NCBI GenBank assembly: GCA_020161775.1
Contig: JAIUOW010000023.1
Span: 1-64,000 of the forward strand
DNA from: Pseudomonadota bacterium
Lineage (GTDB): Bacteria > Pseudomonadota > Gammaproteobacteria > Burkholderiales > Burkholderiaceae_C
Direction: 5' to 3'
Length of the DNA stretch: 64,000 bases
Shown: in pieces, positions 1 through 21,196 of the stretch
Layout of the letters: each line of letters opens with the position of its first letter
Numbering within the stretch: position 1 is the first letter of the stretch
Made by a program: the position numbers and the translations under genes
The notes under the pieces: model-generated
Told to the model about the DNA's origin: nothing
Database searches by the model: none
What the model saw: the letters and a program-made list of their open reading frames with translations, nothing else

Positions 1-124
1 ACCCATTGGGTATATCCCGCCGGCAGAAGCTGAGGCAAACTACTACCGGCAACTCGCCAGTCAGCCCTCCACGGTGGCGGCCTGACTTAAACCAACGGGC
101 CTCCATGAAACTCGGGGCGGTTCA
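1..124 (+). mobile_element. Right end of an IS3-family insertion sequence (partial)
   Basis: The window opens inside an insertion sequence. A transposase C-terminus ends at 85, and 100-124, read on the minus strand, begins TGAACCGCCCCGAGTTTC, which I recognise from memory as the type of terminal inverted repeat found in IS3-family (IS51/IS407-like) elements. The left end lies outside the window. Immediately downstream, from 125, the sequence reads in frame into an MBL-fold hydrolase, so the element appears to have inserted into the first codons of that gene. The short target duplication cannot be confirmed without the other end. Confidence 0.75.
2..85 (+). CDS. IS3-family transposase OrfB, C-terminal 27 residues (partial)
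   Basis: The reading frame is open from the window edge to a TGA at 83-85. It contains GYIPPAEAEANYY, a tail typical of the DDE integrase subunit (OrfB) of IS3-family elements. Only the extreme C-terminus is present, so the catalytic residues lie to the left. The stop falls shortly before the inverted-repeat end, the usual layout for this family. Confidence 0.75.
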   Translation, partial: PIGYIPPAEAEANYYRQLASQPSTVAA

Positions 125-186
125 GGGCAACCCAGACGATTGGTGGCAACTGCATTGAGCTTGCAGAGGCAGGGAGCCGTCTGATC

Positions 187-1338
187 TTGGATGTAGGCCG
201 ACCGCTGGACTCCCCAAAGGACGCATCGGGACTTTTGCCGTCTTCCTTGGACCTTGCAGCACCAACCGCAGGATTGCTGATATCCCACCCACATCTAGAT
301 CACTACGGTCTCTTGCCAGAGACGCCCCCGCAGTGGCCGGTGTACTCGGGCGCCATGGCTGGGCGGTTAATGGCGTTGACAGCCGGGATTCATGGAAAGG
401 TACCAGTCAGGGACTATCGGTACTGGAATAGTGGAGAACCTTTGCAGATCGGGCCATTTCGAGTTACTCCGCTGCTAACCGATCATTCCGCCTTTGATGC
501 CTACATGCTGCTGATTGAGGCGGACGGCAAAAAGGTGCTTTACTCTGGCGATTTTCGTGCCCACGGACGTAAAGCCAGTCTTGTGCGAGCGCTGATGCGG
601 CGACCTCCGGAAAACCTTGATGCTCTACTGCTAGAAGGCACCAACCTGGGTAGCGAAAAGGCCACCGCAGCGGAAAGCGAACTTGAACATTCCTTCTGTA
701 CCTTGTTCCATCGGACGGAGGGGCGCGTTTTCGTGAGTTGGTCCGCTCAGAATATTGATCGTACAGTCACGTTGTACCGCGCATGCCTTCGAAGCGGCCG
801 GACACTGGTGGTTGACCTGTACACCGCACAGGTTTTGGAGTTGCTCGCGGAGAGTGGTCGGCTTCCTCGCCCTGGGCTGAAGCAGTTGAGGGTGGTAGTA
901 ACCCGCACCTTCGTGCGCCTGTACAAGGCCCGCGGCGATGAAGCGTTCGTTGAGCGTATGGCAGCCTATGGTATTTCCGCGAAAGCCCTTGCTTCTGATC
1001 ATGAGCGCTGGGTCATCATGATTCGACCATCGTTGTTAAGGGACTTCGAGCAAAAGGGCGTACGGCCTACCGCACATGATGCATGGAGTTTCTCGCAATG
1101 GCGTGGATATCTTGGCCAACCGGACGGGCATAAGCTGCAGTCGTGGTTTGACTCCGGCATGGCCCAAGCCGACCACATTCACACCTCGGGTCATGCGTCA
1201 ACGGCGGATTTGATGTCATTTGCTTTGGCGATGAAAGCCAAGCGATTGATACCGATTCACGGAATGCACTGGGACGTAGCTGGGGCGCAATTTCCGAACG
1301 TTCTACGCCTGGGCGATGGTGTTCCGGTAGAAATTTAG
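187..1338 (+). CDS. MBL-fold (beta-CASP, RNase J-like) metallo-hydrolase, 5' end cut by an IS
   Basis: A metallo-beta-lactamase fold hydrolase related to RNase J/beta-CASP nucleases. The metal-binding motif HPHLDH is at residues 34-39 of the TTG-initiated frame. A YSGDFRAHGRK motif follows, and HTSGHAS and LIPIHG sit near the C-terminus, as in beta-CASP proteins. The same frame runs upstream without a stop to 109 and, after the IS end at 124, encodes TQTIGGNCIELAEAGSRL, which is the expected family N-terminus. The native first ~5-10 codons are therefore missing, replaced by the IS end. No ATG remains upstream, so expression would need TTG-187 or a non-standard start. The metal site is intact. 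The substrate is unknown. Confidence 0.8.
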   Translation: MDVGRPLDSPKDASGLLPSSLDLAAPTAGLLISHPHLDHYGLLPETPPQWPVYSGAMAGRLMALTAGIHGKVPVRDYRYWNSGEPLQIGPFRVTPLLTDHSAFDAYMLLIEADGKKVLYSGDFRAHGRKASLVRALMRRPPENLDALLLEGTNLGSEKATAAESELEHSFCTLFHRTEGRVFVSWSAQNIDRTVTLYRACLRSGRTLVVDLYTAQVLELLAESGRLPRPGLKQLRVVVTRTFVRLYKARGDEAFVERMAAYGISAKALASDHERWVIMIRPSLLRDFEQKGVRPTAHDAWSFSQWRGYLGQPDGHKLQSWFDSGMAQADHIHTSGHASTADLMSFALAMKAKRLIPIHGMHWDVAGAQFPNVLRLGDGVPVEI

Positions 1339-1909
1339 GTGTATGAACTTAGGCTCCATCAGGAAGCCGATACGGCGCTCGACTCTTTACGCTGAGAGTT
1401 TCTACCCGGCCTGGGTCGAAAGCAGACATTAGAGAGCGGACGAAAAATTAGCATTCGGCAAAAAAACTGCTAAATTGGAAGCTCGCTAGGCGCAAGCGTT
1501 GCGACGAGCTGGCGAACCAGCCATATAGGAATGAATGTAACGTGCTGGCTCGCACTCTCGCGCGAGCCAATCTTGTTGCATTGCGATAGCGAAGGGCTCG
1601 CCTTGCAGGTAAGGCCGAGAACAAAACTTCGCGCACTTCGGATTCGTACGTCTGTCGGATGTCCCTTTTTGTCATGGGCGCTTGACTGCGTATGCACATC
1701 ATCGACTGATGCCCCAGCTCCCGGCACTGCTGCTGCCGGACATGCTAGCAATTACTTTCCGACCAGGTAATCGCAAGCTACTACATCTCGCCATTGGCGT
1801 ATTCCTTCGCAAATTCTGAGCGCGTGCGAAGGACGGATTAATAAAAGTCGCTCCTAACAACCACCAGGGCGGAAAGGTGGTGCCTGCCATTTCCATAAAG
1901 GAGAAATAG
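1339..1909. other. 570-bp intergenic region without a convincing gene
   Basis: Short open frames exist on both strands, but none has a credible start signal or a recognisable product. The stretch is rich in short inverted repeats around 1480-1620. A leader hairpin with arms ACCACC/GGTGGT lies at about 1860-1882, just ahead of the next gene. I see no RNA gene here. Confidence 0.5.
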
Positions 1910-2767
1910 ATGGCTGCACATAACGACGCAAACGTACTCGCGGCTACAACATCAGGTTGTCAGACTTTGATCGTGCTACAACAAGAACAAAATCTGGATC
2001 TCAAAGCGACTGTCCTGAACGGACGAACAGTAGCAATTGATGGTCCAAACCTTGCGGTGGACTGGACATCACTTCATTTTGTCGGGAGCATCTTGGTCAA
2101 CGCCTTGGTCAATACCGGACTTGTGGGAGCAGAGGTAATAAAGCCTGTTGAACAAATCCTGCGCGGCAGTCATGGCATGAATCCGAACCTGAAGTTGACA
2201 ATTTCAGAGCAAATTGATGCCGGTACATTGGTCAAGCTGGGCGCACAGGTGGAATACACGCTAAATGCGATCATGAAAAAGCCCTCGGAGCGCGCAGACA
2301 ACCAGCACGTTCTGTTTGACGATCAAGTCACAAATACTGCTGTTCTTGAGTCAATCGAGCGTGACCTCGATCGGTTCGGTGGACGCAACCTGAAGGCAAA
2401 AGTAAGGGGCGAAATTCCCGGTCGTGCGCCAGTCATTTTGGATGGGGCACTCGGGCGGCGACGAGACAAATCTGACTACACCCCCGAGTCGAAAATGTTT
2501 TCGGGAACAATCCGGGGTTTGATCAATGAGCCCAGCCAGCGATGCCTACTTTTTAGACCCAGTGAAGGCGCGGTCATCGAAATACACTTTGAAGAAGGCC
2601 AGATTGACTCACAGATTAATCTGGAACTAATCGCGCAACTCAACAAGTTCCAAACACCGTGCGCGGTGACGGTATTTGTCACCGTCGGCCCACGTGGGCA
2701 GGCTGTTTATAGCTTCAGCCAAATTAAAGCTGAGCCACCGCCTGAGGCTTTACTGGCCGTCCAATAG
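1910..2767 (+). CDS. Hypothetical protein, 285 aa, convergent with the giant recombinase
   Basis: I do not recognise the family. The start is well supported by AAAGGAG about 8 bases before the ATG. The protein is soluble, without a signal peptide or membrane segment. Its N-terminal half has alternating hydrophobic strands and helices. The C-terminal third (after about residue 190) contains strand-rich stretches such as AVIEIHFEEGQ and AVTVFVTVGP. Codon use and base composition match the neighbouring low-GC genes, not the T6SS region downstream, which suggests co-acquisition with the island. Its last 18 bases overlap the 3' end of the minus-strand recombinase gene, so the two are tail to tail. 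A functional link is inference. Confidence 0.75.
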   Translation: MAAHNDANVLAATTSGCQTLIVLQQEQNLDLKATVLNGRTVAIDGPNLAVDWTSLHFVGSILVNALVNTGLVGAEVIKPVEQILRGSHGMNPNLKLTISEQIDAGTLVKLGAQVEYTLNAIMKKPSERADNQHVLFDDQVTNTAVLESIERDLDRFGGRNLKAKVRGEIPGRAPVILDGALGRRRDKSDYTPESKMFSGTIRGLINEPSQRCLLFRPSEGAVIEIHFEEGQIDSQINLELIAQLNKFQTPCAVTVFVTVGPRGQAVYSFSQIKAEPPPEALLAVQ

Positions 2768-5700
2768 GGCGCTGACGATTAACAATAGGACCAATTCATA
2801 AGAACTAAGTCGTTCCTGATAGGTGCGCCGCGCAATGGCGCCAACGCGATGCTGCACGCGCACAGGCGGATCACCAACTTCCACGGAATCTACTTGTAGA
2901 CCGGAGAGTTCCGCATCCTTATCAACATTGATTGAAACCGGAAGTTGATGTTTTTCTGCGTACGAGGCAAGGCTTGGGTGCAAGTCTTTCCTTGCGCTGA
3001 CCAGCGTCACTGCTTCCGTGGCGATGTTCCACGCAGTCAAAACGCCCTTGAGAACTTTGAAGTGCTCTTCCTTATGAAGGAGGATGTGCCTGGAGGGACC
3101 TACCATCTCCTTCAGGAGTTCGTCGACTGCTGAGCGCGGTGCCAGCTCAGGTACACCAGCAGTCAAATCGTTCGCCCGGCGCACCAGCACGACCCAACGC
3201 GCGGGGCGGATATTGCTAAGCAAATCAGAAACCGGGTGTGGACTTTCAGCAAGAGACTTCAGACGACGGCGCAAGATCGTATCGATCACATTCAGGGCAT
3301 TCAGCACCTCTTCGCCGGCGCTGATAGACATGTCTGTTCTGAAGGCGGCCCGCTCAAGTGGGACGCCTTGACCCAACAAATGAAGCAAACGCAGGACTTG
3401 CCCTGCAGTGATTGTGCGAGGAGGCTGGACCGGGATGACGTATTCGCCAAGGTATGCCGGGTCCTTTGTCATCTCATCCAAGTTGAAGGCATCCACCGTG
3501 AAGCCACGTTTGGCTTGCGATTTGGTGGTCGACCAAACCCGCCGTTCAGCGAGCTCCGGCACCATGTGCAGGTAGCTCCTGACGGCCGTCGTCGGGTGCG
3601 CGTGTCCTAGCAGTCTTGCGATTGCCCAGAGCGTCCGGTGCGTGACATGATCGTGGCTCAGCAACAGCTTGCGCACATGGCTGCACCATTCTTGCTTGCT
3701 GTGCGATGAAGCGGCAGATCGTTTCGGTGGGTTCTTCGATGAGGCGTGCGGCCATACCCCCTCACAGTCATCAATGAGAAGCTCCCCCGCGCGAAAAGCA
3801 AACGAGTGTCGAGCGTGATGAAGGCTGATACTTGAGTTGCGCGTTACTTCTTTAAGGATTTTCGACAGCTTCACACGCACAAGTCGGTCGTTAATCAACT
3901 GGGCAACGTTCCCGGGTTCGAAAAAAAGCGGCAGATCAAATTGACCCATTGCGTGGCCTTGCCAGAGTGCGAGATAGCGATCAATGATCTCGTGCTCGAG
4001 TTCGCTGAGTTGGAACAGTAGCGGTACCTGACGTCGGGCGTTGATCGTCTTCAGGGCGCGCAACTTGTTGGATCGCACCAGAACAAGGGGATTGTCGGAA
4101 ACAGCGTCGACCCAGTCGGAGCGCATCAGTCCGCATGCCTCTGCGCCGCGCAGACCAAATCGATAGCACAGCAACAGCACAAACGCAGTTGCGAGATCGT
4201 CGAAGGAGGCTGATTGGGGGTTGGTGACCAGCACGCCCAGCGCATACTGGTATTCCTTCTCGAGGATATACCCCGGTGAAATCGACAGAAGCTCTTCGCC
4301 GCCGGGCACCTCGGACCAGTCAGGATCGTCGACAGCCATTTCCCGACTGACCAGGCCGTGAAAATTGCGCAGCAACATCAGCGCTAGCCGCCAGGTGCGA
4401 TAGTTAGCAGCAGGTTGATCCTGGGTCGACTCATTTGATTCAGTTGCGTCAGTGGCAGTTTGTATCGGTTCTTGCGGAGGCAGGGACAGACGCGCTTGCA
4501 TGATCTGAACATAGAACTCTGTGACGTCTTTGGCGTCACAAGTACTCAGGTCATGTTCGTAAGCCACTGCCTCGAAACAGGTGGACAGCGCATTGAAATA
4601 GCGCAGGACCGAGCGCAGCTTCAAGTCGCCGCGAGAGGTGCGGCGCCAAAGCAGTGACCGAACCCACTCAGCCAGTAGTCGGCAGGACAGACTTACATCA
4701 GGATTGGCCGTGATGACTTTGCGCAGTGCGGAATCCAGATTTTTCCGGGGACTGCTTTTCTTGCTTGTGCAGTTGCTGATTTCCTTTCGAACCTCCGCAA
4801 AGAAAGCGTGTGCATCCTGTTGTAGCTTTGCTTTCCGCGCCGCGGCGGTAGCGTCTTTTGACCCGTGGGAGACGGATTCACTGAGCCTCACACTACCCGT
4901 CGTCTCTACCAGGACGTCACCCAAAAAGGTGTACTCGTCAGCCTGACCGTTGCTTGGCGTGACGATCCAGTCAACGTCCTCCTCATCCGCGGTTGCGGGA
5001 TCGGTCGGTTTGATATTGGCTTCCGGGGTGGTTGGCAGCAGGCTGACGGCGTATCCACGATGCACACGTACCCAGTCCGCATGGTTGAGCGCAGCAGTAA
5101 CTACGTGGCCACCCAGGTAGGCGGCGACCAAGCCGGGATATTCCTGCCAATTCACCTGGTCGATGATGGTGCGCAAAGACTGTATGAATTTCGCGTAATC
5201 ACCCGAAGTGCCACCACTGGTCTGAGCAGCTTCGGCGACAGCGTGGAGCGTCTTGGGCAGCGGCGTCGTTGCAGCGTCGATTTTGATTGTCGAGCCGACC
5301 GCCCGGGACAATAGCGCTGCAGCCATTTCGGGAATTCGGTATCGAACCCTCGGGGACTGGGCATTTTGGTGAAGGACGGGGGAATGCTCCAGGTAGTACA
5401 GGCCCGTGAAAGTGACCAATTGGTAATTTCGATTGTTCGCGAGGTCATCAAGGACGCGCTTGTCAGCGACACGTGATTCGCAGGCTACGCACGCGATGCC
5501 CAGCATCAGACTTTGGCCTATTGAGACTTTGCTTGGCGTGATCGATGCGAGCTCTTGCGCCAATGCCTTGGCGGCGGCTCTCAGGCGCTGGGGCGCTCGG
5601 ATGGACAGCGCGGTGATTGGCGAGGATTCCTCCAGCAGCGGCAAGTACCGCTTCTTCAGTCGGGGGCCTGACCCGCTTGCTTGCCATCGGTCCGAGATCC

Positions 5701-8416
5701 AATAGCGCATGGCGTCGTAACGCAGACTGCCCATCGGATGTGGAAGCCCCTGAGTGGTCAGCAACATTCGCTGGCTCAATTTCTCCCAATCGTCAGCGGA
5801 CAGGCTGTCCACCGGGCGATCGGCCAAAAAGGCGTCGATATCCTGACGCGCTACCTCCTTGGCCCGGCGGTGACTGTCTTGGCGTTGTTTTGTACGGGCT
5901 TCCTGACCAAACTGCTCGTCAGATCTCAGAGCAGTTCCTCCCGACGGCTTGGGCACATGCGCCGCCTCGCTTTCCGGCCAGATGGGGGCAATCGGCCGGG
6001 AAAACTGCAAACCCGCAAGCAGCTCATCCAGAGCCGGCGCACATGCTTGGATGTCGTCCGCCAAGATGCGCAGGGAGTAGGGCCCGTACGGCGAAGTCCC
6101 CTGTTCAGAATGACCCATCAGGCCGTTGACGATCTCATGGTCGACTTTCCGTCGGGTCAAGGCTGTGGCCAGACGATGCCGCATCAGGTTCCAGGGCAGC
6201 GGCCACTCGAAGATCTCAAGCGCGCTCAAAGTTTTTTCGCTGACTTCCGTCCAGGCCAGTTCCGGTTTGGTGCTGATGAGAAACAGCAGGGGCAGTGATG
6301 TGCTGGCTTGCCAATCTGCCAGACGCTCGATTTCTTTTGAAAACAAGCTGTCAATAGGCTTCAGCAACCTGGACAGGCGCTTCAGGTGGGGCCGAAGCAC
6401 ATGCTCAAGGATGTCCACCACCAACGGGGGAAGCGGAACAAGACGTCCATCATGCAGTTGGAAGGACACTTTGTCGGCGATAAAGATCCGCCAGTTTTGC
6501 AGATCAATCCAGTCGATGGACTCAAACGGCGAGCGAATGGGCCGCGCGCCGGTGGCTGACATCAGTATCACCGCGACGTAGGCAATCAAGGCGTTGTGGT
6601 GCGCCGCCCAACTTCTCGGATCGGTGGCCAACCGGTTGACCTTGTGGATTGCATCGGCGCAGGCCTGCTTCAGCAGCTCCTCAATCGGGTCAAGTTCACT
6701 CCCCGCGGCATTGCGTTTCTTGTCAGACGACGGTTCCGGTGGATTTGCCGTTGTGCCGGTCGCCGCCTGCAGGGCCGAGAGAACAAATTCGGCGGAATAC
6801 GCGCTGTACGCACAGGCTGCAGGCAGTCCGGAATGGGGGTGGCTTGACAGCAGGAGCGCCAAGGTCTGATCCTGCGTCGACTCAAATATCAGTTGACCCA
6901 GCAGGCGCGACAGCATCCCGGAGGTGACGCGCTGCAGATCCGGGTCGACAGCGCAAGCTTGGTTGAACTGTTGCTCGGCTGTCGTCGCATGACGCCACAG
7001 TTGACCCAGCAAGGTGCTGTCCTGTGCACGGGCGTGCATGGCCCGGACCGCTCGGGCAACGGGTTCGGGCAGTGGAATCTGTATGGCTGGCGCTAACGGT
7101 GAAACCCAGTTGCTCGCCGCGCCGTCAGCGTGCCAGCTGTTGTACCGCCGAGGAGGTAGGCGATGAAGAAGACCGTCGGCAACATCGATTCGCCAGTCCT
7201 TGGCTGGCTCCGCTCCCAGCTCCAGGCGCATGACCGTCCGGAGTGAATTGCTACTCAGGGCAGACAGCCAGACCAACGCTGCCAATTCCTGCAGGTCGGC
7301 ATCGCTGCCAGCCCAAACTTGGTTGAGCCACGCTTGGAGGGCTTTGCGCTCAGCCGTATTGGGACGGTTCCAGCTGAACGGCAGGACCTGCCGGTCTTCG
7401 ATCGATGCCAGCAGAACGCCTGTGGCTTTACGCTCCTGTTCGACAGGTGTCTCGTTCTCGTCGACGCCAACGATTTGGCAGGCATTGTTCTCCACGCCCG
7501 CATTGCCCAGCGGGATGAGGCCAAGATCAGTGGCCGATTCCCCGTAAAGACCTGGTTCATCCTCCTCGGTCTCAGGCGTTTGGGTGCTCAAGCCCCAGTT
7601 CTGACTGGCAGGAGATGCTTGCCACTCCTTAGAAAACAGCCTCCCGGATTCAGTCGGGGTCGCACTTTGACCAGATGGCCACTTACCTTGCGCAAACTTC
7701 TCCAGCTCGCGCAGCGTGGTCAACTCGATCGGCCGGGCGTGCGCCAGTTCACCGCGCAGCGCCCCCGCACGGGTGGCCAAATGTCGCGTGATCCCGTGGA
7801 ACGAATCGAATGGCCCCCTTAGTCGACTGAACAAGGTCAGCCAGGCCGGCTCTGTGTCAATCCCCATGCGCAGCTTTTCTGCGGCGTTGACGAGGTATGG
7901 GTTTGGCTGGCACCCCGTGAAGGCGGCATTGAGAAACTGTACAAAAAACCAGCAACGTAGCGCCTCAATCCAAGTCGAATCCTCCTGCGGGCATGGCGGC
8001 AGCGGCCGCGCAAGGAGCGCTAGAAGTGGCAGATCGCTGAGCGAACCACCGACCAGTTGACGCTCGATGGCCCGTTGCCCGGGGGCGGCAGGATTCTGCA
8101 CATATATATATGGCGCAATGCTGCTGGCTTCCAGCAACTCCAGGAGATCTGGCAAAAGAGGGACTTCATCTTGCCAAGTCCGCAGGTAACGCTGCGACTC
8201 GGGCATCCGCAGGTAACCGAGGGCGGTGCCGATTTGCTGGGGGTATTCGAGCGTCCGGGTGGCATCTATGACGAGGGCCAGCGTTGGCTGGAGACCAAGC
8301 TTGCTTGCCCAGTGTAGAAGGCTGGCCAGTTTTGACCCAATGGTCACACCAGAGCTGACCTGACGACCGGCGTTGCTGGCGGGCGGGGCAGCGATGTTGG
8401 GATCAGTTGGTTCCAA
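2750..8416 (-). CDS. Giant protein with two tyrosine-recombinase-like catalytic domains (1888 aa)
   Basis: The C-terminal unit has the full tyrosine-recombinase signature: Arg1423 in FGLRGAEA, His1534/Arg1536 in LHHARHSF, His1605 in LLGH and the candidate nucleophile Tyr1615 in VRSYLH (codon 3572-3574). A second, divergent unit lies at about 600-790: Arg625 in SATGARP, Arg746-His747 in NLMRHRLAT, His769 in LMGH, and Tyr777 or Tyr780. Its Asn743 replaces the first His of the HxxR box. Typical integrases are 300-450 residues, so this is four to six times that size, with long non-catalytic stretches at 1-590, 800-1400 and 1640-1888. The start is uncertain: TTG at 8416 has no clear Shine-Dalgarno, and no in-frame ATG lies between it and the upstream stop. 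It is probably a mobile-element or chromosomal recombinase, but DNA-binding without catalysis is possible. Confidence 0.75.
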   Translation of the reverse strand: MEPTDPNIAAPPASNAGRQVSSGVTIGSKLASLLHWASKLGLQPTLALVIDATRTLEYPQQIGTALGYLRMPESQRYLRTWQDEVPLLPDLLELLEASSIAPYIYVQNPAAPGQRAIERQLVGGSLSDLPLLALLARPLPPCPQEDSTWIEALRCWFFVQFLNAAFTGCQPNPYLVNAAEKLRMGIDTEPAWLTLFSRLRGPFDSFHGITRHLATRAGALRGELAHARPIELTTLRELEKFAQGKWPSGQSATPTESGRLFSKEWQASPASQNWGLSTQTPETEEDEPGLYGESATDLGLIPLGNAGVENNACQIVGVDENETPVEQERKATGVLLASIEDRQVLPFSWNRPNTAERKALQAWLNQVWAGSDADLQELAALVWLSALSSNSLRTVMRLELGAEPAKDWRIDVADGLLHRLPPRRYNSWHADGAASNWVSPLAPAIQIPLPEPVARAVRAMHARAQDSTLLGQLWRHATTAEQQFNQACAVDPDLQRVTSGMLSRLLGQLIFESTQDQTLALLLSSHPHSGLPAACAYSAYSAEFVLSALQAATGTTANPPEPSSDKKRNAAGSELDPIEELLKQACADAIHKVNRLATDPRSWAAHHNALIAYVAVILMSATGARPIRSPFESIDWIDLQNWRIFIADKVSFQLHDGRLVPLPPLVVDILEHVLRPHLKRLSRLLKPIDSLFSKEIERLADWQASTSLPLLFLISTKPELAWTEVSEKTLSALEIFEWPLPWNLMRHRLATALTRRKVDHEIVNGLMGHSEQGTSPYGPYSLRILADDIQACAPALDELLAGLQFSRPIAPIWPESEAAHVPKPSGGTALRSDEQFGQEARTKQRQDSHRRAKEVARQDIDAFLADRPVDSLSADDWEKLSQRMLLTTQGLPHPMGSLRYDAMRYWISDRWQASGSGPRLKKRYLPLLEESSPITALSIRAPQRLRAAAKALAQELASITPSKVSIGQSLMLGIACVACESRVADKRVLDDLANNRNYQLVTFTGLYYLEHSPVLHQNAQSPRVRYRIPEMAAALLSRAVGSTIKIDAATTPLPKTLHAVAEAAQTSGGTSGDYAKFIQSLRTIIDQVNWQEYPGLVAAYLGGHVVTAALNHADWVRVHRGYAVSLLPTTPEANIKPTDPATADEEDVDWIVTPSNGQADEYTFLGDVLVETTGSVRLSESVSHGSKDATAAARKAKLQQDAHAFFAEVRKEISNCTSKKSSPRKNLDSALRKVITANPDVSLSCRLLAEWVRSLLWRRTSRGDLKLRSVLRYFNALSTCFEAVAYEHDLSTCDAKDVTEFYVQIMQARLSLPPQEPIQTATDATESNESTQDQPAANYRTWRLALMLLRNFHGLVSREMAVDDPDWSEVPGGEELLSISPGYILEKEYQYALGVLVTNPQSASFDDLATAFVLLLCYRFGLRGAEACGLMRSDWVDAVSDNPLVLVRSNKLRALKTINARRQVPLLFQLSELEHEIIDRYLALWQGHAMGQFDLPLFFEPGNVAQLINDRLVRVKLSKILKEVTRNSSISLHHARHSFAFRAGELLIDDCEGVWPHASSKNPPKRSAASSHSKQEWCSHVRKLLLSHDHVTHRTLWAIARLLGHAHPTTAVRSYLHMVPELAERRVWSTTKSQAKRGFTVDAFNLDEMTKDPAYLGEYVIPVQPPRTITAGQVLRLLHLLGQGVPLERAAFRTDMSISAGEEVLNALNVIDTILRRRLKSLAESPHPVSDLLSNIRPARWVVLVRRANDLTAGVPELAPRSAVDELLKEMVGPSRHILLHKEEHFKVLKGVLTAWNIATEAVTLVSARKDLHPSLASYAEKHQLPVSINVDKDAELSGLQVDSVEVGDPPVRVQHRVGAIARRTYQERLSSYELVLLLIVSALLDGQ

Positions 8417-8568
8417 TTGGCATGTCAGGCTGAGCTGATGTTGCCGTTGACTGTACCCCTATTTGAGAGGTAGAACCGCTTTTTTAGCGGTTATACGCCT
8501 ATTCTCAACATGTTATATGCTGGTCTTTGGCGTGGCCTCATAACCTTCCAGCGGCTTCCGCTGAAAGC
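8417..8568. other. Short spacer with a hairpin upstream of the recombinase
   Basis: No gene is recognisable. An AACCGCT/AGCGGTT hairpin (8474-8492) and a second one, CAGCGG/CCGCTG, near 8550-8563 are visible. The stretch should hold the minus-strand promoter of the recombinase gene and possibly its crossover site, but I cannot define either. Confidence 0.4.
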
Positions 8569-8603
8569 AAACGCCCACTAACCAGTGGGCGTTTTTGTTT
8601 TTG
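8569..8603 (+). terminator. Rho-independent terminator, plus strand
   Basis: The stem ACGCCCACT/AGTGGGCGT has a four-base AACC loop and is followed by TTTTGTTTTT on the plus strand. No complete plus-strand gene precedes it, so it probably belongs to a gene lost when this region was rearranged. Confidence 0.75.
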
Positions 8604-8682
8604 TGCCCACCTTGTTCCAAGCGAGGATTCCAAGCGAGGACGCGTGTCGTGAACGGAATTCACGAGATGTTCAGATTTTCCT

Positions 8683-9655
8683 TCAGGTGGGTTGGCTGCA
8701 AATCTCCGCTTCCTCTGCGACACGGCGGGCCAGGATTCGACGAAATTGCACCAGTGCCGAATCCATGGCCAACGGCAGCATGGGTGCATCCGGGTGACGC
8801 TTGATGTTCTCGTGCTGGGCCGTAATCGTCTCCAGGTCTTCGTGGAACGCCGCCAGCAGATTGGCAAAGATGGTTTCCTTCAGGTCGGCGTTGCCGTCAG
8901 TGCTGCGATGTGACTCCTGAAAGAAATAATGCGTGCTGTCGTGTGTTTCGGGTGTCAGCGTCTGGCAGCTGTGGAACAGGATGGCTCGGTCCAGATGGAC
9001 GTCACCAGTGGGCTTGCTGCCCGATCCCATCAGTAGCGTGCCAGGCAATACGAAGTCGTAGTCAATCCAGCGGTCCGCAGGGGTATCGAAGCCGCGGAAG
9101 TCGTAGTAGGCAGGTGGTGGCACGTTGTCGATACGCCGCGAAACGTTCACCCCATTCGCCAATGGCTTCACCGTCGGAGCGACTTCTGCGATGCGTGTGC
9201 TACCGCCCAGCGTGCCGGCGTGAACGTAGCTCAGGTGCGAGAAATCCAGCAGGTTGTCACAGATCAGCAGGTAGGGGGTGGGGTAGTGCAGATAGCCCGG
9301 CTTGTACTGCCATTCGGGATGGTCGCAGGAGAAGTTGTCCGGCAAAAGAGCCTCATCGGCCCGTTCTGTGTCGCCCATCCAGATGAACACCCACTTGTTT
9401 TTCTCCACGACGGGATAGCTTCGGACCCGCGCTTTGGGTGGCACCGTCGTCATACCTGGAACCTCGACACAGGCGCCGCTGGGGTCAAACTTCAGGCCGT
9501 GATAGCCGCAGCGCACGCAGTCGCCCTCCAGGCGGCCGCGCGACAGGGGAGCCAAGCGGTGACAGCATCGGTCTGCCAGCGCGGCCAAACCGCCACTGGA
9601 GGTGCGATACACAAGCACGGGTTCGTTGAGTACGGTGCGGTGGAAAAGATCGGGT
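8683..9655 (-). pseudogene. 5'-truncated Rieske aromatic-ring oxygenase (VanA-like)
   Basis: This is the oxygenase component of a VanA-type Rieske non-heme iron demethylase, which converts vanillate-like methoxybenzoates. The Rieske [2Fe-2S] ligands are visible: CCHRLAPL and, 17 residues later, CGYHG. The mononuclear-iron region DNLLDFSHLSYVHAG follows. The C-terminus looks complete and stops at 8683. The N-terminal ~20-30 residues, which normally carry a WYVA segment, are missing: homology starts at LFHRTVLNEPV near 9655, where the sequence changes to a glyA fragment on the other strand. No reductase (VanB) gene is nearby. I regard it as a remnant. Confidence 0.75.
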
Positions 9656-9669
9656 GACCCGGGAGGCTT

Positions 9670-10332
9670 GTGGCCACAGGGCACTTCCCGAACCCGTTGC
9701 CGCATGCCGACATTGTCACAAGCACGACGTACAAGAATTTTCGCGGCGTGCGCGGCGGACTGATCCTGTGCAATGCCCCTGTCCTGGCGCAGCGAATCGA
9801 CGCCGCTGTCTGCCCCGGCCTGCAGGGAACGCCCAGCATGAACATGATCGCGGCCAAGGCCGTTGCGTTCAAGGAGGCGCTGCAGCCTGAGTTCGCCCAT
9901 TACAGTGAGCAAGTGTTGCGCAACGTGCGGGCACTGGGTGCCGCGCTTGCGCAACGCGGCATCCCAATGCTCACTGGCGGTACAGATGTTCCATTCCTGA
10001 TAGCCGACCTTCGGCCGCTCGGCATCGACGCCGATCCGCTGGTCCGCGCGCTCGACGCATTGAATGTCGGCTGCAACGCTGCCCCAGTCCCCGGGGACAT
10101 TGACTTTGCAAAGGCGCGAGGATTGCGTCTGGGCGCATCCTCGCTGACGACCAGGGGCATGGGCGAAGACGAGTTCGTGGAGATTGCCGGGGTCATTGCC
10201 GATGTTGCCCATGCGATCGCACAGGGGGGCATGCCGACCGCAGGCGCGGCGGACGCAATTCGCGCCTTGAGCCGCCGTTTTTTTGCCCTTTTTTGTAACT
10301 GGCCTAGGCGTCACCGCGATGTCATTGTTTAA
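9670..10332 (+). pseudogene. glyA: 3' fragment of serine hydroxymethyltransferase (5' half missing)
   Basis: The frame encodes the C-terminal ~220 residues of an SHMT (normal length about 415-430). It begins at HFPNPLPHADIV, followed by the PLP-lysine segment TSTTYKNFRG (usually TTTTHKTLRG), GLQGTPSMNMIAAKAVAF and GGTDVPFLIADLRP. The substrate and PLP residues of the N-terminal half are absent, and the sequence upstream of ~9665 belongs to the oppositely oriented oxygenase. The His-to-Tyr change before the PLP lysine and the odd tail (FALFCNWPRRHRD) suggest a divergent copy under relaxed selection. A functional glyA must be elsewhere. Confidence 0.75.
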
Positions 10333-10363
10333 TGCCACAGTCGATCAGATTCAGGCGTGAATA

Positions 10364-10393
10364 TTGCACTAGTTTCGTAAGGGTTAGTATTTA
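10364..10393 (+). promoter_or_regulatory. Candidate sigma-70 promoter for the T6SS operon
   Basis: A TTGCAC -35 and a TATTTA -10 separated by 18 bases lie about 110 bases before tssB, in the only sizeable gap upstream of the T6SS genes. A good Shine-Dalgarno (GAGGGG) precedes the tssB ATG. The promoter is proposed from sequence alone. Confidence 0.4.
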
Positions 10394-10500
10394 GAAACAA
10401 GCCCTGAAAGGTTCATAGAATGAATTTCACGCCTGTGACTGTTCTACGCAACAGCTCAATCTGAACCACCACTTTCGTAACAATTCTAGAGGGGAAAACC

Positions 10501-11031
10501 ATGGCAGACAGTCTGCAAAAATGGGTTGGCCGCAACAGGCCGCCGCGCGTCCAGATCACGTATGACGTCGAAATCGGCGATGCGGTCGAGAAAAAGGAGC
10601 TGCCCATGGTGGTCGGCCTGCTGGCCGATCTGTCGGGCCAACCGGCAACCCCCCTGCCCAAGCTCAAGGACCGTCGCCTGGTCGAGATCGACCGCGACAA
10701 CTTCAATGAAATCATGGGCAAGATCAGCCCCCGCCTGGACCTGTCGGTGCCCGACACCATGAAAGGCGAGGGCAACCTCAAGATCGAACTCAATTTCAAG
10801 GAGTTCGACGATTTCCATCCCGAAGCCATCGTCAAGCAGGTCCCGCGCCTGGCCAAGCTGCTTGAAGCGCGCCAGCAACTGCGCGACCTGCTGGCCAAGC
10901 TCGACGGCAATGACGAACTGGACAGCCTGCTCGAAAACATCGTTGCCAACACCGAGGACCTGAAGAAGGTCCAGTCGGAAGCCAATGCCGGCGCAGAAGC
11001 GCCTGCAGACGAATCGGCCCCGGCGGCCTGA
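10501..11031 (+). CDS. tssB: T6SS contractile sheath small subunit TssB (VipA)
   Basis: TssB pairs with TssC to build the cytoplasmic contractile sheath around the Hcp tube. The 176-residue length is typical. The N-terminus MADSLQKWVGRNRPPRVQI and the following ELPMVVGLLADLSG segment are family hallmarks. The acidic/alanine-rich tail (EANAGAEAPADESAPAA) is variable. GAGGGG lies 7 bases before the ATG. It is the first gene of a plus-strand operon, with tssC 60 bases downstream. The gap contains an imperfect GGTGCACC/GGTGCGCC hairpin. Confidence 0.95.
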   Translation: MADSLQKWVGRNRPPRVQITYDVEIGDAVEKKELPMVVGLLADLSGQPATPLPKLKDRRLVEIDRDNFNEIMGKISPRLDLSVPDTMKGEGNLKIELNFKEFDDFHPEAIVKQVPRLAKLLEARQQLRDLLAKLDGNDELDSLLENIVANTEDLKKVQSEANAGAEAPADESAPAA

Positions 11032-11091
11032 TCAAACCATTCTGGTGCACCCTTTTCGGTGCGCCGCAACAATTTGGAACGGTGAAACAAA

Positions 11092-12582
11092 ATGGCAGAA
11101 ACCCAAGCAAGCGCTGAAGGCGGCGCAGCAACCGCAACCGCAGACATGACTCTTCTGGACAAGATCGTCCACGAAGGCAATATGGCGGTCGAACCGTCGC
11201 AAGGCCCCTACGCCAAGAAGCTGATCGGGCAATTTGCATCGCAGATCCTGGACGAGGGCATGAAGGCCGCGCCGGACAAGGGCGTCGTGGCCATGATCAA
11301 CGAGCGCGTCGCGGAAATCGACAAGCTGCTCACGGACCAGCTCAACGCGATCATGCATGACGCCAAGTTCCAGGCGCTTGAGGCGTCCTGGCGCGGCCTG
11401 CACGACATGGTGTATGGCACGGAAACCAGCTCGCGCCTGAAGCTGCGCCTGCTCAACGTCACCAAGAAAGAACTGCTCAAGGACCTGGAGTCCGCCGTCG
11501 ATCACGACATGAGCGTTCTGTTCAAGAAGATCTACGAAGAGGAATACGGCACCTTCGGCGGCCATCCCTATTCGCTGCTGATCGGTGACTACACCTTTGG
11601 CCGCCATCCGCAGGACATGGCCCTGCTGGAGCGCATCTCCAAGGTGGCCGCCGCCGCGCATGCGCCGTTCATCGCGGCTGCGTCGCCCGCGCTGTTCGAC
11701 ATGAAGTCGTTCACCGACCTGGGCGTTCCGCGCGACATGTCCAAGATCTTCGAAAGCGCCGAGCTGGCCACCTGGCGCAGCTTCCGCGAATCGGAAGACT
11801 CCCGCTACGTGTCGCTGGTGCTGCCCAGCTATGCCGCGCGCCTGCCGTATGGCGCCAAGACCATCCCCGTGGACAACTTCAATTTCGAAGAAGACGTGGA
11901 CGGCAAGGACCACTCCAAGTACCTGTGGGCCAACTCCTGCTACCAGCTGGGCCTGCGCATCACCGATGCGTTCGCCAAGTTCGGCTGGTCCACGGCGATC
12001 CGCGGCGTCGAAGGCGGTGGCAAGGTCGAGGGCATGACTGCCCACGCCTACAAGACGGATGAGGGCGACGTGGTGCTCAAGTGCCCCACCGAGGTCACCA
12101 TTACCGACCGCCGCGAAAAGGAACTCAACGACCTGGGCTTCATTGCCATCGTCAACTCCAAGGGTTCCAACTTCGCCGCCTTCTTTGGCGGCCAGACGGT
12201 CAACAAGCCCAAGCTGTACAACAAGGACGCGGCCAACGCCAACGCCCAGCTGTCGGCGCGCCTGCCGTACGTGCTGGCGGCTTCCCGCTTTGCCCACTAC
12301 ATCAAGGTCATCATGCGTGACAAGGTCGGCAGCTTCCAGACGCGCGGCGAGGTGGAAACCTACCTGAACAACTGGATTGCCGACTACGTGCTGATCAATG
12401 ACTCCGCGCCGCAGGCCACCAAGGCCCGCTTCCCGCTGGGGCAGGCGCGCGTGGACGTGACCGAGGTGCCCGGCAAGCCCGGCGCCTACCAGGCCACCTG
12501 TTTCCTGCGCCCGCATTTCCAGATGGAAGAACTGACGGCGTCCATCCGTCTGGTGGCTGAGCTGCCGCCGGCCGCCGCGTGA
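11092..12582 (+). CDS. tssC: T6SS contractile sheath large subunit TssC (VipB)
   Basis: TssC forms the sheath with TssB and carries the C-terminal region that ClpV recognises after contraction. The 496-residue length matches the family. Recognisable blocks include WRGLHDMVY, the HPYSLLIGDY segment, and the C-terminal ARVDVTEVPGKPGAYQATC followed by FLRPHFQMEELTASIRLV. The N-terminal ~20 residues are Ala/Thr-rich and variable. The start is taken at the ATG following GGAACGGTGAAACAAA. hcp follows after 33 bases with its own AGGAG. Confidence 0.95.
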   Translation: MAETQASAEGGAATATADMTLLDKIVHEGNMAVEPSQGPYAKKLIGQFASQILDEGMKAAPDKGVVAMINERVAEIDKLLTDQLNAIMHDAKFQALEASWRGLHDMVYGTETSSRLKLRLLNVTKKELLKDLESAVDHDMSVLFKKIYEEEYGTFGGHPYSLLIGDYTFGRHPQDMALLERISKVAAAAHAPFIAAASPALFDMKSFTDLGVPRDMSKIFESAELATWRSFRESEDSRYVSLVLPSYAARLPYGAKTIPVDNFNFEEDVDGKDHSKYLWANSCYQLGLRITDAFAKFGWSTAIRGVEGGGKVEGMTAHAYKTDEGDVVLKCPTEVTITDRREKELNDLGFIAIVNSKGSNFAAFFGGQTVNKPKLYNKDAANANAQLSARLPYVLAASRFAHYIKVIMRDKVGSFQTRGEVETYLNNWIADYVLINDSAPQATKARFPLGQARVDVTEVPGKPGAYQATCFLRPHFQMEELTASIRLVAELPPAAA

Positions 12583-16457: not shown

Positions 16458-19163
16458 ATGGACATCGACATCCGGACACTGCTAGGCAGGCTCAACCCCG
16501 AGTGCAAGCGCACGCTGAATCATGCAGCCGAGCTGTGCGTGCAGCAGACCCACTACAACGTGGATGTGGAGCACCTGCTGTTCAAGCTGCTCGAAGGGCC
16601 TGCGCCTGACGTCGGTCTGATCCTCGCGCAGTTTGACCTGAAGGCCGACGCGCTGCAGGCGCAGCTGCAGCAGGCCATGGACCGCTTCAAGCGCGGCAAC
16701 AGCCGCACGCCGTCGTTCTCGCCCAACCTGGCGCCGCTGTTCCAGGAGGCCTGGCTGCTCAGCTCCATGCTGCTGGGTGAACAGCAGGTGCGCTCGGGCA
16801 CCATCCTGCTGGCCCTGCTGGAGGTGGACAGCCTGCGCGGGCTGCTGCTGGAGTCTGCACCCAGCCTGCTGCAGATTCCGCGCGAGACCTTGCGCAACGG
16901 CCTGGCCGACCTGCTGGCCACGTCGGCGGAAGACGCCGGTGGCGCGGCCCGCGCAGCCGGCCCCGCGCCAGCGCCGGCCGCCGCAGGGCAGCCCGGTGCC
17001 AGCGCAGACGCCCCGCGCCAGATGCCGACGATGCGCAAAGGCAGCGGCAACACGCCGTCGCTGGACCAGTACACCGTTGACATGACGCAGGCCGCGCGCG
17101 AGGGCAAGATCGACCCGATCCGCGGGCGCGACCCCGAAATCCGCCAGATCGTGGACGTGCTGCTGCGCCGCCGCCAGAACAACCCCATCCTCACCGGCGA
17201 GGCCGGCGTGGGCAAGACAGCCGTGGTGGAGGGCTTTGCCCAGCGCATCGTCGCGGGCGACGTACCGCCGTCACTGAAGAACGTGTCGCTGCGCGCGCTG
17301 GACCTGGGCCTGCTGCAGGCCGGCGCGGGCATGAAGGGCGAGTTTGAAAACCGTCTCAAGTCCGTGATCGCCGAGGTCAAGGCCTCGCCCACGCCCATCA
17401 TCCTGTTCATTGACGAGGCGCACCAGCTCATCGGCGCGGGTGGTGCAGAAGGCCAGGGCGACGCGGCCAACCTGCTGAAGCCGGCGCTGGCGCGCGGCGA
17501 GCTGCGTACCGTGGCCGCCACCACCTGGGCTGAATACAAGAAATACGTGGAACGCGACCCGGCGCTGGCGCGCCGCTTCCAGGTGGTGAAGGTGGAGGAG
17601 CCCAGCGAAGACATTGCCATCGACATGCTGCGCGGCATGGTCGCCACACTGCAAAAGCACCACGGCGTGGAGATCGTGGACGATGCCGTGCGCGACGCCG
17701 TCAAGCTGTCGCACCGCTACATCTCGGGCCGCCAATTGCCAGACAAGGCCATCAGCGTGCTGGATACCGCCTGCGCCCGCGTGGCCATTGGCCAGAGCGC
17801 GCTGCCGCTGGAGATCGAAGACATCACCCGCGACATCGGCAGCGCCGAAAACCAGCTGCGCATCCTGCGCCACGAAGCCGCCACCGGCAAGGACAACGCC
17901 GGCGCCATTGCCACGCTCACGGCCGAGCTGGAAGGCCTGCGCCAGAAGCACAAGCGCCTGTCCGACAAGCTGGGCGACGAAAAGAATGCCGTGGCCGAAA
18001 TCGTTGCCCTGCGCAAACGCATTTCCGACAGCGTGGACGCACAGACGTCCAGCGACGACGCCGACATGCTCAAGGCCAGCCTGCAGCGGCTGGAAAAAGG
18101 CCTGGAGGCCGTGCAGGACGACGAGCCCATGGTGCCCGTGTGCGTGGACTCCTCCGTGGTGGCGCAGGTCATCTCGGGCTGGACGGGCATCCCCGTGGGC
18201 CGCATGCTGGCCGACGAACTGCACACGGTGCTCAACCTCAAGGAAAAGCTGCGCGAGCGCGTGGTGGGCCAGGACCAGGCGCTGGACGCCATAGCCCGGC
18301 GCGTGCGCACCTTCCGCGCCGACCTGGACGACCCGGGCAAGCCGGTGGGCGTGTTCATGCTGGTGGGGCCGAGCGGCGTGGGCAAGACCGAAACAGCCTT
18401 TGCGCTGGCCGACCTGCTGTATGGCGGCGAACGCAACATGGTCACCGTCAACATGTCCGAGTTCCAGGAAGCGCACACGGTTTCCAGCCTCAAGGGCGCG
18501 CCACCCGGCTACGTGGGCTATGGGCGTGGCGGTGTGCTGACCGAAGCCGTGCGCCGCCGCCCTTACAGCGTGGTGCTGCTGGACGAAATGGAAAAGGCCC
18601 ACCCCGACGTGCTGGAGCTGTTCTTCCAGGTGTTCGACAAGGGCCAGATGGAAGACGGCGAAGGCGTGATGATCGACTTCAAGAACACGCTGATCCTGCT
18701 CACGTCCAACGCGGCGCAGGACGTGATCACCGACGCTTGCGAAGGCGGGCGACGGCCTGACCCGCAGCATCTGGTGGACCTGTTGCGCCCGGCGCTGCTC
18801 AAGCAGTTCTCGCCGGCCTTCCTGGGCCGGCTGGTGCTGGCGCCTTACTACCCGCTGGGCGACGGGCAGATCCAGTCCATCGTGAACCTCAAGCTGGGCA
18901 AGCTGGCCCAACGCTTTGCGCGCAACCACAAGGCCGAATTCACCTGGGACGACGCGGTGTCGCGCGCCATCACAGAGCGTTGCACCGAGGTGGACAGCGG
19001 CGCGCGCAACGTGGACCACATCCTCACGCAGTCGGTGCTGCCCGAGGTGTCGCGCCTGGTGCTGGAGCGCATCTCCATGGCCGACCCGTTTGGCAGCGTG
19101 CACATGGGCCTGGGCGCGGACGGCCAGTTCAGCTTCCGGTTCGGCCCGGTGCGCAAGGACTGA
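16458..19163 (+). CDS. tssH: T6SS sheath-recycling AAA+ ATPase ClpV (TssH)
   Basis: ClpV extracts and unfolds contracted TssB/TssC sheath in the cytoplasm. The 901-residue product has the double Clp-N repeat (about 1-150), an Ala/Pro/Gly-rich linker near 155-190, AAA+ module 1 with Walker A GEAGVGKT near 247 and Walker B LFIDEAH, a coiled-coil middle domain, and AAA+ module 2 with GPSGVGKT near 637 and VLLDEMEKAH. The frame is open upstream to 16179, but ATG-16458, just after tssG, gives the conserved start MDIDIRTLLGRLNPECKR. vgrG follows after 14 bases. Confidence 0.95.
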   Translation: MDIDIRTLLGRLNPECKRTLNHAAELCVQQTHYNVDVEHLLFKLLEGPAPDVGLILAQFDLKADALQAQLQQAMDRFKRGNSRTPSFSPNLAPLFQEAWLLSSMLLGEQQVRSGTILLALLEVDSLRGLLLESAPSLLQIPRETLRNGLADLLATSAEDAGGAARAAGPAPAPAAAGQPGASADAPRQMPTMRKGSGNTPSLDQYTVDMTQAAREGKIDPIRGRDPEIRQIVDVLLRRRQNNPILTGEAGVGKTAVVEGFAQRIVAGDVPPSLKNVSLRALDLGLLQAGAGMKGEFENRLKSVIAEVKASPTPIILFIDEAHQLIGAGGAEGQGDAANLLKPALARGELRTVAATTWAEYKKYVERDPALARRFQVVKVEEPSEDIAIDMLRGMVATLQKHHGVEIVDDAVRDAVKLSHRYISGRQLPDKAISVLDTACARVAIGQSALPLEIEDITRDIGSAENQLRILRHEAATGKDNAGAIATLTAELEGLRQKHKRLSDKLGDEKNAVAEIVALRKRISDSVDAQTSSDDADMLKASLQRLEKGLEAVQDDEPMVPVCVDSSVVAQVISGWTGIPVGRMLADELHTVLNLKEKLRERVVGQDQALDAIARRVRTFRADLDDPGKPVGVFMLVGPSGVGKTETAFALADLLYGGERNMVTVNMSEFQEAHTVSSLKGAPPGYVGYGRGGVLTEAVRRRPYSVVLLDEMEKAHPDVLELFFQVFDKGQMEDGEGVMIDFKNTLILLTSNAAQDVITDACEGGRRPDPQHLVDLLRPALLKQFSPAFLGRLVLAPYYPLGDGQIQSIVNLKLGKLAQRFARNHKAEFTWDDAVSRAITERCTEVDSGARNVDHILTQSVLPEVSRLVLERISMADPFGSVHMGLGADGQFSFRFGPVRKD

Positions 19164-19177
19164 ACGGGGCCACACAG

Positions 19178-21196
19178 ATGCGTACCGGCTTCACCCAGGC
19201 AAATGCCTTCCTCACGCTCACCACGCCCTTCGGCGCGGACGTGCTGCTGCTGGACGCGTTCGACGGGACGGAAGCCATCTCGCAGCCGTTCCGCTTTTCG
19301 CTGACCATGCGCGCGGGAAGCGCCACGCTGGACGCGGCCACCATCGTGGGCGCGGTGGCCACCGTCAAGATGGCGCTGGCCAACGGCCCCACGCGCTACT
19401 TCAGCGGCATCGTGTCGCGCTTTGTGCATTCGGGCGGCGACCGCGAGTTTTCGGCCTACTCGGCCGAGCTGGTGCCCAAGCTGTGGCTGCTCACGCTCAG
19501 CCGCAACCGCGTGATCTGGCAGAACAAGACGGCGGCCGACATCATCAAGGCCGTGCTGGGTGAATTTGGCGTGACCTTCGAGGCCAAGCTCACCGCCACC
19601 TACCCCACGCGCGAATACTGCGTGCAGCATGATGAAACGGCGTTTGATTTCATCTCGCGCCTGATGGAAGAAGAAGGCATCTTCTACTTCTTCACCTTCG
19701 CCAGCGGCACCCACACCATGGTGCTGGCGGATGCCACCAGCGCCCACACGGCCTGCGCCGACGCCGCCACGCTGCGCTTTTTGCCGCCCACCGGCGGCGG
19801 GCGCGAGCTGGTGGACACCGTGACGCGCATGGAGTCCGAAAGCCGCCTGGTGGCGCAGCAGTACACCTCCAACGACTACGACTACCTCAAGCCCAGCACT
19901 TCGCTGCTGGCCGACCAGACCGGCACGGCGGGCAAGGGCGCGCAGTTCGAATACCCGGGCGGCCACACCGTGGCGGCCGACGGCACGCAGCGCGCCAAGG
20001 TGCGCGTGCAGGCCGAGCAGGTGCAAAGCGCCGTGGCGCGCGGCCAGAGCTTTTGCTATGCGCTGGCGGCCGGCACCAAGTTCACCCTGTCGGGCCACAC
20101 CCGCACGGCGCTCAACACCGCCCATGTGCTGCGCACCGTGACGCACACGGCCAGCGAGCAGCACTACAGCAACGCATTCGAGACCTTCCCGGCCACGGTG
20201 CCGTTCCGTCCGCCGCGCAGTACGCCGCGCCCGCGCGTGGCTGGCAGCCAGATCGCCACGGTGGTGGGCTCCAGCGGCGAGGAAATCTGGACCGACAAGC
20301 ACGGCCGCATCAAGGTGCAGTTTCCCTGGGACCGCCTGGGCAAGAAGGACGAGAACAGCTCGTGCTGGGTGCGCGTGTCGCAGACCTGGGCCGGCCAGGG
20401 CTGGGGCGCGCTGTTCCTGCCGCGCATCGGGCAGGAAGTCATCATCAGCTACATCGATGGCGACCCTGACCGCCCGCTGGTCACGGGCAGCGTCTACAAC
20501 GCCGAAAAGACGCCGCCGGTGACGCTGCCGTCCAACCAGACGCAAAGCACCATCAAGTCGCGCTCGTCCAAGCAGGGCGCGGCCGGCAATGAAATCCGCT
20601 TCGAGGACAAGAAGGATGCCGAGGAGTTCTACTTCCATGCCCAGAAGGACATGAAGGTCGAGATCGAAAACGCCCTGACCACCACCGTCAAGGCCAGCCA
20701 CGAAGTGCACACGCTTGAAAAGGGCGACCGCACCGTGGACGTGCAGACCGGCAAGGAAGTGCACAAGGTCAAGGGCACGCGCGAGGTGGAAGTCACCGGC
20801 AACGAAACCCATACCGACAAGGCCGACTTCACCCACAAGGTCACGGGCAACTACGAGCTCAAGGTCACCGGCAACCTGGTGATCGACGTGACCGGTTCCG
20901 TCACGATCAAGGGCGCCAAGGACGTGGGCGTGAAGGCCGGCACCACGCTGGACGCCGAGGCCGGCACCGCCCTGACCAACAAGGCGGGCACGGCGCTCAC
21001 CAACCAGGCCGGCACGTCATTGACCAACAAGGCCAGCCTGGACCTGACCAACCAGGCGGGCACCGGCCTGAAAAACAAGGCCGGCACCACGCTGGACAAC
21101 GAGGGCGCCATGGTCACCAACAAGGGCTCGGCCATGCAGACCGTGGACGGCGGTGGCATGCTGACGCTCAAGGGCGGCCTGGTGAAGATCAACTGA
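19178..21196 (+). CDS. vgrG: T6SS spike protein VgrG (TssI)
   Basis: VgrG trimers cap the Hcp tube. The 672-residue protein has gp27-like domains (to about residue 370), a gp5 OB-fold around 375-470 (DKHGRIKVQFPWD, RIGQEVIISYIDGDPDRP), and a long beta-prism needle. The C-terminus carries seven copies of an 8-residue repeat of the form AGTxLTNK (residues 587-642), each encoded by 24 bases. The tail MLTLKGGLVKIN is typical of VgrGs without an enzymatic extension. ATG-19178 is chosen because it gives the family N-terminus; the open frame extends upstream into clpV. The following genes are probably its cargo or adaptors. Confidence 0.95.
   Translation: MRTGFTQANAFLTLTTPFGADVLLLDAFDGTEAISQPFRFSLTMRAGSATLDAATIVGAVATVKMALANGPTRYFSGIVSRFVHSGGDREFSAYSAELVPKLWLLTLSRNRVIWQNKTAADIIKAVLGEFGVTFEAKLTATYPTREYCVQHDETAFDFISRLMEEEGIFYFFTFASGTHTMVLADATSAHTACADAATLRFLPPTGGGRELVDTVTRMESESRLVAQQYTSNDYDYLKPSTSLLADQTGTAGKGAQFEYPGGHTVAADGTQRAKVRVQAEQVQSAVARGQSFCYALAAGTKFTLSGHTRTALNTAHVLRTVTHTASEQHYSNAFETFPATVPFRPPRSTPRPRVAGSQIATVVGSSGEEIWTDKHGRIKVQFPWDRLGKKDENSSCWVRVSQTWAGQGWGALFLPRIGQEVIISYIDGDPDRPLVTGSVYNAEKTPPVTLPSNQTQSTIKSRSSKQGAAGNEIRFEDKKDAEEFYFHAQKDMKVEIENALTTTVKASHEVHTLEKGDRTVDVQTGKEVHKVKGTREVEVTGNETHTDKADFTHKVTGNYELKVTGNLVIDVTGSVTIKGAKDVGVKAGTTLDAEAGTALTNKAGTALTNQAGTSLTNKASLDLTNQAGTGLKNKAGTTLDNEGAMVTNKGSAMQTVDGGGMLTLKGGLVKIN
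20936..21103 (+). repeat. Seven tandem 24-bp repeats inside vgrG
   Basis: Seven in-frame 24-bp units encode AGTTLDAE, AGTALTNK, AGTALTNQ, AGTSLTNK, ASLDLTNQ, AGTGLKNK and AGTTLDNE. The units are diverged at wobble positions, so the repeat is kept at protein level, consistent with one beta-strand rung of the spike per unit. Confidence 0.85.

Follow-up and report, generated by a model that had tools for sequence, protein, structure and literature searches.

The stretch analysed here, called the window below, comprises the first 64,000 nucleotides of contig JAIUOW010000023.1 of a Pseudomonadota bacterium (GCA_020161775.1). A single gene on its minus strand (2750..8416, TTG start) encodes a protein of 1888 aa that combines two domains of the tyrosine-recombinase (YR) kind; the C-terminal one is a tyrosine recombinase with all six catalytic residues and the catalytic fold of these enzymes. 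We lean towards the reading that the two domains represent an obligate pair of a catalytic and a non-catalytic recombinase, covalently joined in this protein, that would serve to move genomic islands.

The presence of two recombinase domains in one polypeptide, proposed earlier in a sequence-only reading of the window, was confirmed. A search with PF00589 against the whole 1888-aa protein gave E 5.7e-10 and 39.7 bits (cut-off 27.1), with the best stretch at residues 1404-1542; two stretches were found at E<=1 and one at E<=0.1. The two sets of catalytic residues lie far apart, as had been stated, the distance from first Arg to first Arg (positions 625 and 1423) being 798 residues instead of the ~840 given there. 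The frame behind this gene in the assembly amounts to 1902 aa and is stop-free, and a search of the assembly found one copy of the gene in its own genome. No match was obtained by phmmer for the 1888-aa protein among PDB sequences.

The C-terminal recombinase, with core-binding and catalytic parts, occupies residues ~1242-1620 (3557..4693, minus strand). Its catalytic signature (RKHRHY) is complete, as had been read from the sequence alone: R1423, K1456, H1533, R1536, H1605 and Y1615. The C profile matched a Xer profile of 15 sequences with an hhalign E of 8.7e-17. Among 32 C proteins, three did not cover all six columns; in the 29 counted, R, K, R, H and Y were kept without exception and the first His in 25. 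Structures of the N and C halves were predicted with AlphaFold from only 4 and 5 aligned sequences, respectively. The C model (mean pLDDT 47.5) is usable only around residues ~1190-1540, and in structure comparison this locally good part resembles XerH, XerA, IntI and Cre. A phage repressor in the PDB, SroF of phi3T, was also among its Foldseek matches.

The N-terminal recombinase-like catalytic domain (residues ~600-790; 6047..6619, minus strand) is marginal in a single-sequence Pfam search. In the PF00589 search that the sequence-only reading had proposed, the C domain passed clearly and the N domain only between E 0.1 and 1. When relatives were included, the N profile (34 sequences) matched the Xer profile with an hhalign E of 6.8e-9 and a probability of 95.8, compared with E 0.14 to 0.80 for 30 column-shuffled N profiles. 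Against an independent family of arm-type integrases the E was 2.1e-4, with Y780 paired with the catalytic Tyr of the integrases. Compared directly with each other, the two profiles, N and C, gave only a weak match (E 0.0019, probability 14.5). At the level of sequence profiles, the N domain is similar to tyrosine recombinases beyond chance once its relatives are considered.

A MAFFT alignment of 34 N rows was used to follow the catalytic positions; duplicates (L029, L037, L092) were excluded, as were L035 and the L091 fragment, in which the last His is not reached. R625, K649, R746 and H769, the residues that bind the DNA phosphate, were invariant in all 34 rows. The column of the first His was replaced in 33 rows (Asn in 25) and held His in one; the window protein has N743. 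Its candidate Tyr is Y777 or Y780, so that the missing first His and the ambiguous Tyr noted earlier both stood. The spacing between His and Y780 exceeds that between the His and Tyr of the C domain by one residue. In the Y780 column Tyr was found in 7 rows, Phe in 7 and another residue or a gap in 20, so that Tyr is missing in 27, with Phe, Val, Ser, His, Thr and Cys among the replacements; all ten other 'large frame' rows lack Tyr there. Since the C rows keep R, K, R, H and Y while the N rows lose residues, the loss is specific to one half. These alignments provide good support for the degenerate N partner as a trait of the family, not a quirk of the window gene.

Searches with the window protein (E<=0.001) gave matches in two of 60 relatives and, at the level of the order, in 13 of 300 genomes; a profile of seven members (E<=1e-15) detected 14/300 genomes in the order and 12/299 in the phylum. 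In a sample of the class, 65 of 369 genomes matched at E<=0.001, mostly through Xer-sized frames, and in 15 the best E was no higher than 1e-15; the counts for order, phylum and class include the window's own genome. Six plasmid records were matched weakly by the window protein and 212 by a split C gene, Acinetobacter accounting for 208. Genome contigs searched with the window protein alone yielded ten pattern matches with no relative among them; no match to the window protein was found in phages, and none in viral contigs with query A7.

Frames of the family loci were searched with N and C profiles corresponding to window residues 330-860 and 1000-1640. Twelve distinct frames matched both: the window frame (1888 aa), L004 (1798), L022 (1867), L025 (1855), L026 (1862), L028 (1834), L033 (1769), L087 (1762), L090 from a Rubrivivax metagenome-assembled genome (1890), L103 (1683), L123 (1763) and L148, the second copy of genome G298 (1949, locus cut). 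L103 is an Acinetobacter plasmid protein with N coverage only as far as the Lys column. L084 (1767 aa) and L085 (1473 aa) were dropped from this set, as only the N profile matches them. At 24 distinct other loci the halves are neighbouring frames, including L127, which has stop codons within its N match; three more fetched loci duplicate members of these 24, and L091 (contig-cut, with a frame change in N) and L088 stand outside them. The break falls inside the N domain, just ahead of its catalytic part, in three loci (L024, L076, L078). In 7 of the 19 pairs with gene ends read (L027, L030, L031, L035, L071, L083, L093), the N gene and the C gene overlap by exactly 4 bp, as is typical where translation is coupled. 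The N and C parts stay together across the family, either fused or adjacent, and the earlier view of the fused form as an exception among separate genes did not hold.

Between L025 and L028, which are 47% identical overall, identity reaches 51% in the catalytic domain of N and 57% in that of C, compared with 33% for the first ~330 residues and 39% for the last ~250. Ahead of each catalytic domain lies a conserved stretch, probably a core-binding domain. The long spacers, earlier called unexplained, are partly accounted for by these stretches; the fast-evolving parts are the two ends of ~330 and ~250 residues, namely an N-terminal region without known domain (residues 1-330; 7427..8416, minus strand) and a C-terminal tail without assigned function (residues 1640-1888; 2753..3499, minus strand). 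Two plasmid N genes gave a ratio of non-synonymous to synonymous substitution rates (dN/dS) of 0.41 (115 differences), other close pairs being too similar, and the N domain looks to be under constraint rather than decaying. The C-domain tree, in which L091 and L088 were treated as split, grouped the window with L090 and L091 (support 100/98), with deep branches mostly unsupported. The fused label required seven changes, at least two of them forced by starred branches, and was weakly clustered (75 of 500 shuffles equally low). Both a single and a repeated fusion are compatible with this tree.

Tyrosine recombinases normally need four like subunits, which cut in turn; the half-of-sites logic used here and the comparison with XerCD belong to the general knowledge of these enzymes. 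In the proposed mechanism, the N domain would be a partner that mostly lacks the nucleophile and keeps the catalytic pocket, and the C domain the complete recombinase. N would occupy one half of the core site and C the other half, N holding the DNA and activating or placing C, with cleavage by C only. Two such proteins brought together in a synapse would supply two subunits that cut and two that do not; one strand pair would be exchanged, and the junction would be dealt with by host replication, as is reported for the strand-biased SE elements. The job of the protein would be the integration and movement of a genomic island. Island movement is likely. The pseudo-dimer, with half-of-sites and strand-biased exchange, is suggested by analogy with SE elements, for which strand-biased exchange and circularization are reported (PMC10214605).

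Several other explanations were considered. It is unlikely that both domains of the window protein are active, as a covalent XerC/XerD-like pair in which each cuts one strand pair in turn. The window N domain does combine R625, K649, R746 and H769 with Y780, the Tyr recurs in that column in 7/34 rows, and hhalign pairs it with the Tyr of an arm-type integrase. However, the first His is Asn, and the Tyr column is otherwise filled in 27 rows, including the ten other 'large frame' rows, so that the family does not need this Tyr. We also give little credence to an N domain repurposed for DNA binding or regulation, for example as an autorepressor or target selector, with no part in the synapse. Phage repressors of the recombinase fold do occur in the PDB, as the match to SroF of phi3T illustrates, but plain DNA binding would leave unexplained why the pocket Arg, Lys, Arg and His are kept in 34/34 rows, and N and C are fused or adjacent. 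Nothing was found to suggest that errors of sequencing or assembly created the fused frame or that it is a pseudogene in decay, and both are most improbable: full-length fused frames occur in several other genomes and records, the window frame has no internal stop and its catalytic residues are intact. The artefactual fusion that the sequence-only reading had named as a possible refutation is thereby refuted, barring a frameshift in the reads of this isolate.

It is also quite unlikely that the window carries, in divergent form and with two genes fused, one of the multi-recombinase elements already described (Gamma-Mobile-Trio (GMT), SE or GInt). GMT islands (GmtY, GmtZ, GmtX), the name being that of NCBIfam NF040693, also bear recombinases together with defence cargo. 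The GmtY model has 441 positions. At E<=0.1, no model named after GMT or GmtX, GmtY or GmtZ matched any of the 22 members and six additional proteins scanned, GmtY being the one model confirmed to be in the library. SE and GInt do pair active recombinases with fold proteins devoid of catalytic residues, Tfp and GinC, described in both papers as separate degenerate proteins (PMC10214605, PMC5385486). SE elements consist of four separate genes, intA-tfp-intB-srap, with two active recombinases and a Tfp reported without the RHRY motif (PMC10214605). They resemble our family in having a large recombinase next to a recombinase-fold protein that lacks the catalytic motif, in the translational coupling of the genes and in islands that carry cargo; in the family N domain, by contrast, R, K, R and H are retained. 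The window has a single recombinase gene, a fused one, where an SE has four genes, and SE elements are reported from Gammaproteobacteria only, whereas the family also occurs on Alphaproteobacteria plasmids. No sequence relation was found with the pAQU1 SE set, the one SE tested (E 0.0033 or worse with N and C profiles; positive controls 1.7e-15 and 1e-33).

GInt islands carry GinA, GinB, GinC and GinD, with the recombinase operon at one island end and a degenerate GinC reported without the first Arg (PMC5385486). An operon of recombinases with a degenerate member on a genomic island is a common feature, but GInt has three recombinase genes and GinD, all separate, and GinC lacks the first Arg that N keeps. 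The ginABCD layout with three integrases was not found in the window, as judged by gene layout, with GInt sequences outside the comparison. RIT elements and Tn554 also use several recombinases acting together (PMC3414803, PMC10214605). In RIT elements these are three separate proteins, 315-410 aa long and each equipped with the catalytic Tyr (PMC3414803), unlike the one gene with two domains found here; Tn554 (TnpA, TnpB, TnpC) is set apart by description only. For the GR13 plasmids of Acinetobacter one core tyrosine recombinase gene, tyr13, is described, with no degenerate partner mentioned in the available text (PMC9455709). The GR13 plasmid pDETAB5 carries a family N gene of 779 aa and a C gene of 1064 aa, the latter being no more than a candidate for tyr13. 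In the open literature searched, mostly without subscription journals and partly in incomplete texts, no description of a fused live/dead pair was found.

On Acinetobacter plasmids, three divergent modules (L039, L103 and L104 types) have a dyad site of ~95 bp beyond their C gene, with a 15-bp inverted repeat around a 19-bp centre at 29, ~276 and ~570 bp after the stop. A 101-bp stretch around this dyad occurs in 53 plasmid records, all from Acinetobacter, 39 of them with at least 80% of it. Compared with L099, plasmid L097 is missing 2600 bp, and on the left this gap starts within the centre of the 15-bp repeat; this one case fits recombination at a core site. An apparent junction in plasmid L037 was explained by an IS3 insertion and discarded as evidence. 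A second C-type recombinase, in two overlapping frames and apparently broken, lies on the same plasmid as the L039 module (17456-20657). In the window, an 11-bp perfect inverted repeat with a 4-nt loop (8569..8594, unstranded) is situated 153 bp upstream of the recombinase gene and downstream of a Rieske gene, and is probably a terminator rather than an attachment site; no other dyad near the gene marked an element end.

Several points weigh against an obligate live/dead pair that moves islands. Strand bias in this family has no direct support and is argued by analogy only. The N-half model has a mean pLDDT of 40.8 and is unusable, so that the structure prediction suggested by the sequence-only reading bore out a recombinase-like C part and gave no usable N fold. 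The window N domain itself carries Y780, aligned to the integrase catalytic Tyr, which leaves its inactivity uncertain here. One close plasmid comparison gave an N dN/dS of 1.06, from 5 differences only. At the partner end of the L097/L099 gap a second dyad is not clearly visible, and a site of this kind is missing from the window. For the window element, neither an attachment site nor an empty site or a second copy was found; relatives share its right-flank DNA only from about window position 10490 and therefore offer no empty site. A general attachment dyad downstream of C was tried and rejected, as arms of at least 14 bp occurred in 3/31 loci (two being the same site) versus 1/300 control windows.

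Next to the recombinase gene, a convergent gene of 285 aa (1910..2767, plus strand) overlaps its 3' end by 18 bp and has no family match. Several relatives have a convergent or downstream gene in the equivalent place, without detectable homology to it, and shuffled versions of the 285-aa gene reached E 0.0014 in the homology comparison. These positional counterparts were rejected as a third conserved partner, only those of L090 and L091 being mutually homologous, and membership of the 285-aa gene in the recombinase module is unproven. The neighbourhood survey proposed earlier confirmed the conserved N/C pairing and yielded neither a third partner nor ends of the window element. An RNase J-like beta-CASP metallo-beta-lactamase gene (1-1338) lies near the contig start, so that the region lacks its left-hand end. 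On the other side, within 8683-10332, a Rieske/VanA_C oxygenase gene (minus strand, Pfam) and a plus-strand frame, which looks like the C-terminal portion of an enzyme resembling serine hydroxymethyltransferase, are apparently both truncated near 9660, back to back. Synteny at the DNA level with G710 (82%), the nearest relative sampled, starts at ~10490, from where the genes presumably form a type VI secretion cluster. No further integrase was found in a Pfam scan of open frames in 1-12000, the contig starting at base 1, and PADLOC gave no match.

Among 36 compared family loci, 10 have in common a gene for an integrase of 403-466 aa, with a second gene beside it in eight of those ten or their kin. 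One such integrase, when scanned, contained Arm-DNA-bind_2 and PF00589, and the two second genes scanned had an HD domain weakly similar to TraI_2. The genome of the window itself carries elsewhere (L096, G000:C2:276500-296000), among defence-looking genes, an arm-type integrase 60% identical to the one beside a relative's recombinase. The pair adjoins annotated BREX, HNH, HipA or type I restriction genes on Acinetobacter plasmids and precedes a HipA gene on a Ketogulonicigenium plasmid; by our reading of their sequences, the other islands may be defence-rich. On the Ketogulonicigenium plasmid (L071, 6282-12714) a close four-gene set was observed, with a 141-aa gene before N and C and a 248-aa gene after them, neither with a match in Pfam.

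Decidedly tentative is the wider proposal of a widespread, undescribed class of island recombinases, in which an obligate live/dead pair would have been repeatedly fused or unfused and covalent asymmetry would lead to exchange of one strand pair and copy-out of defence islands. If a fused pair with one non-cutting half is true, asymmetry would be fixed in one chain. It would then become testable why elements of the SE and GInt type keep degenerate recombinases, and whether strand bias and direction are set by the partner. Large integrase genes that public records now list under no other label than site-specific integrase or hypothetical protein would gain a name as well.
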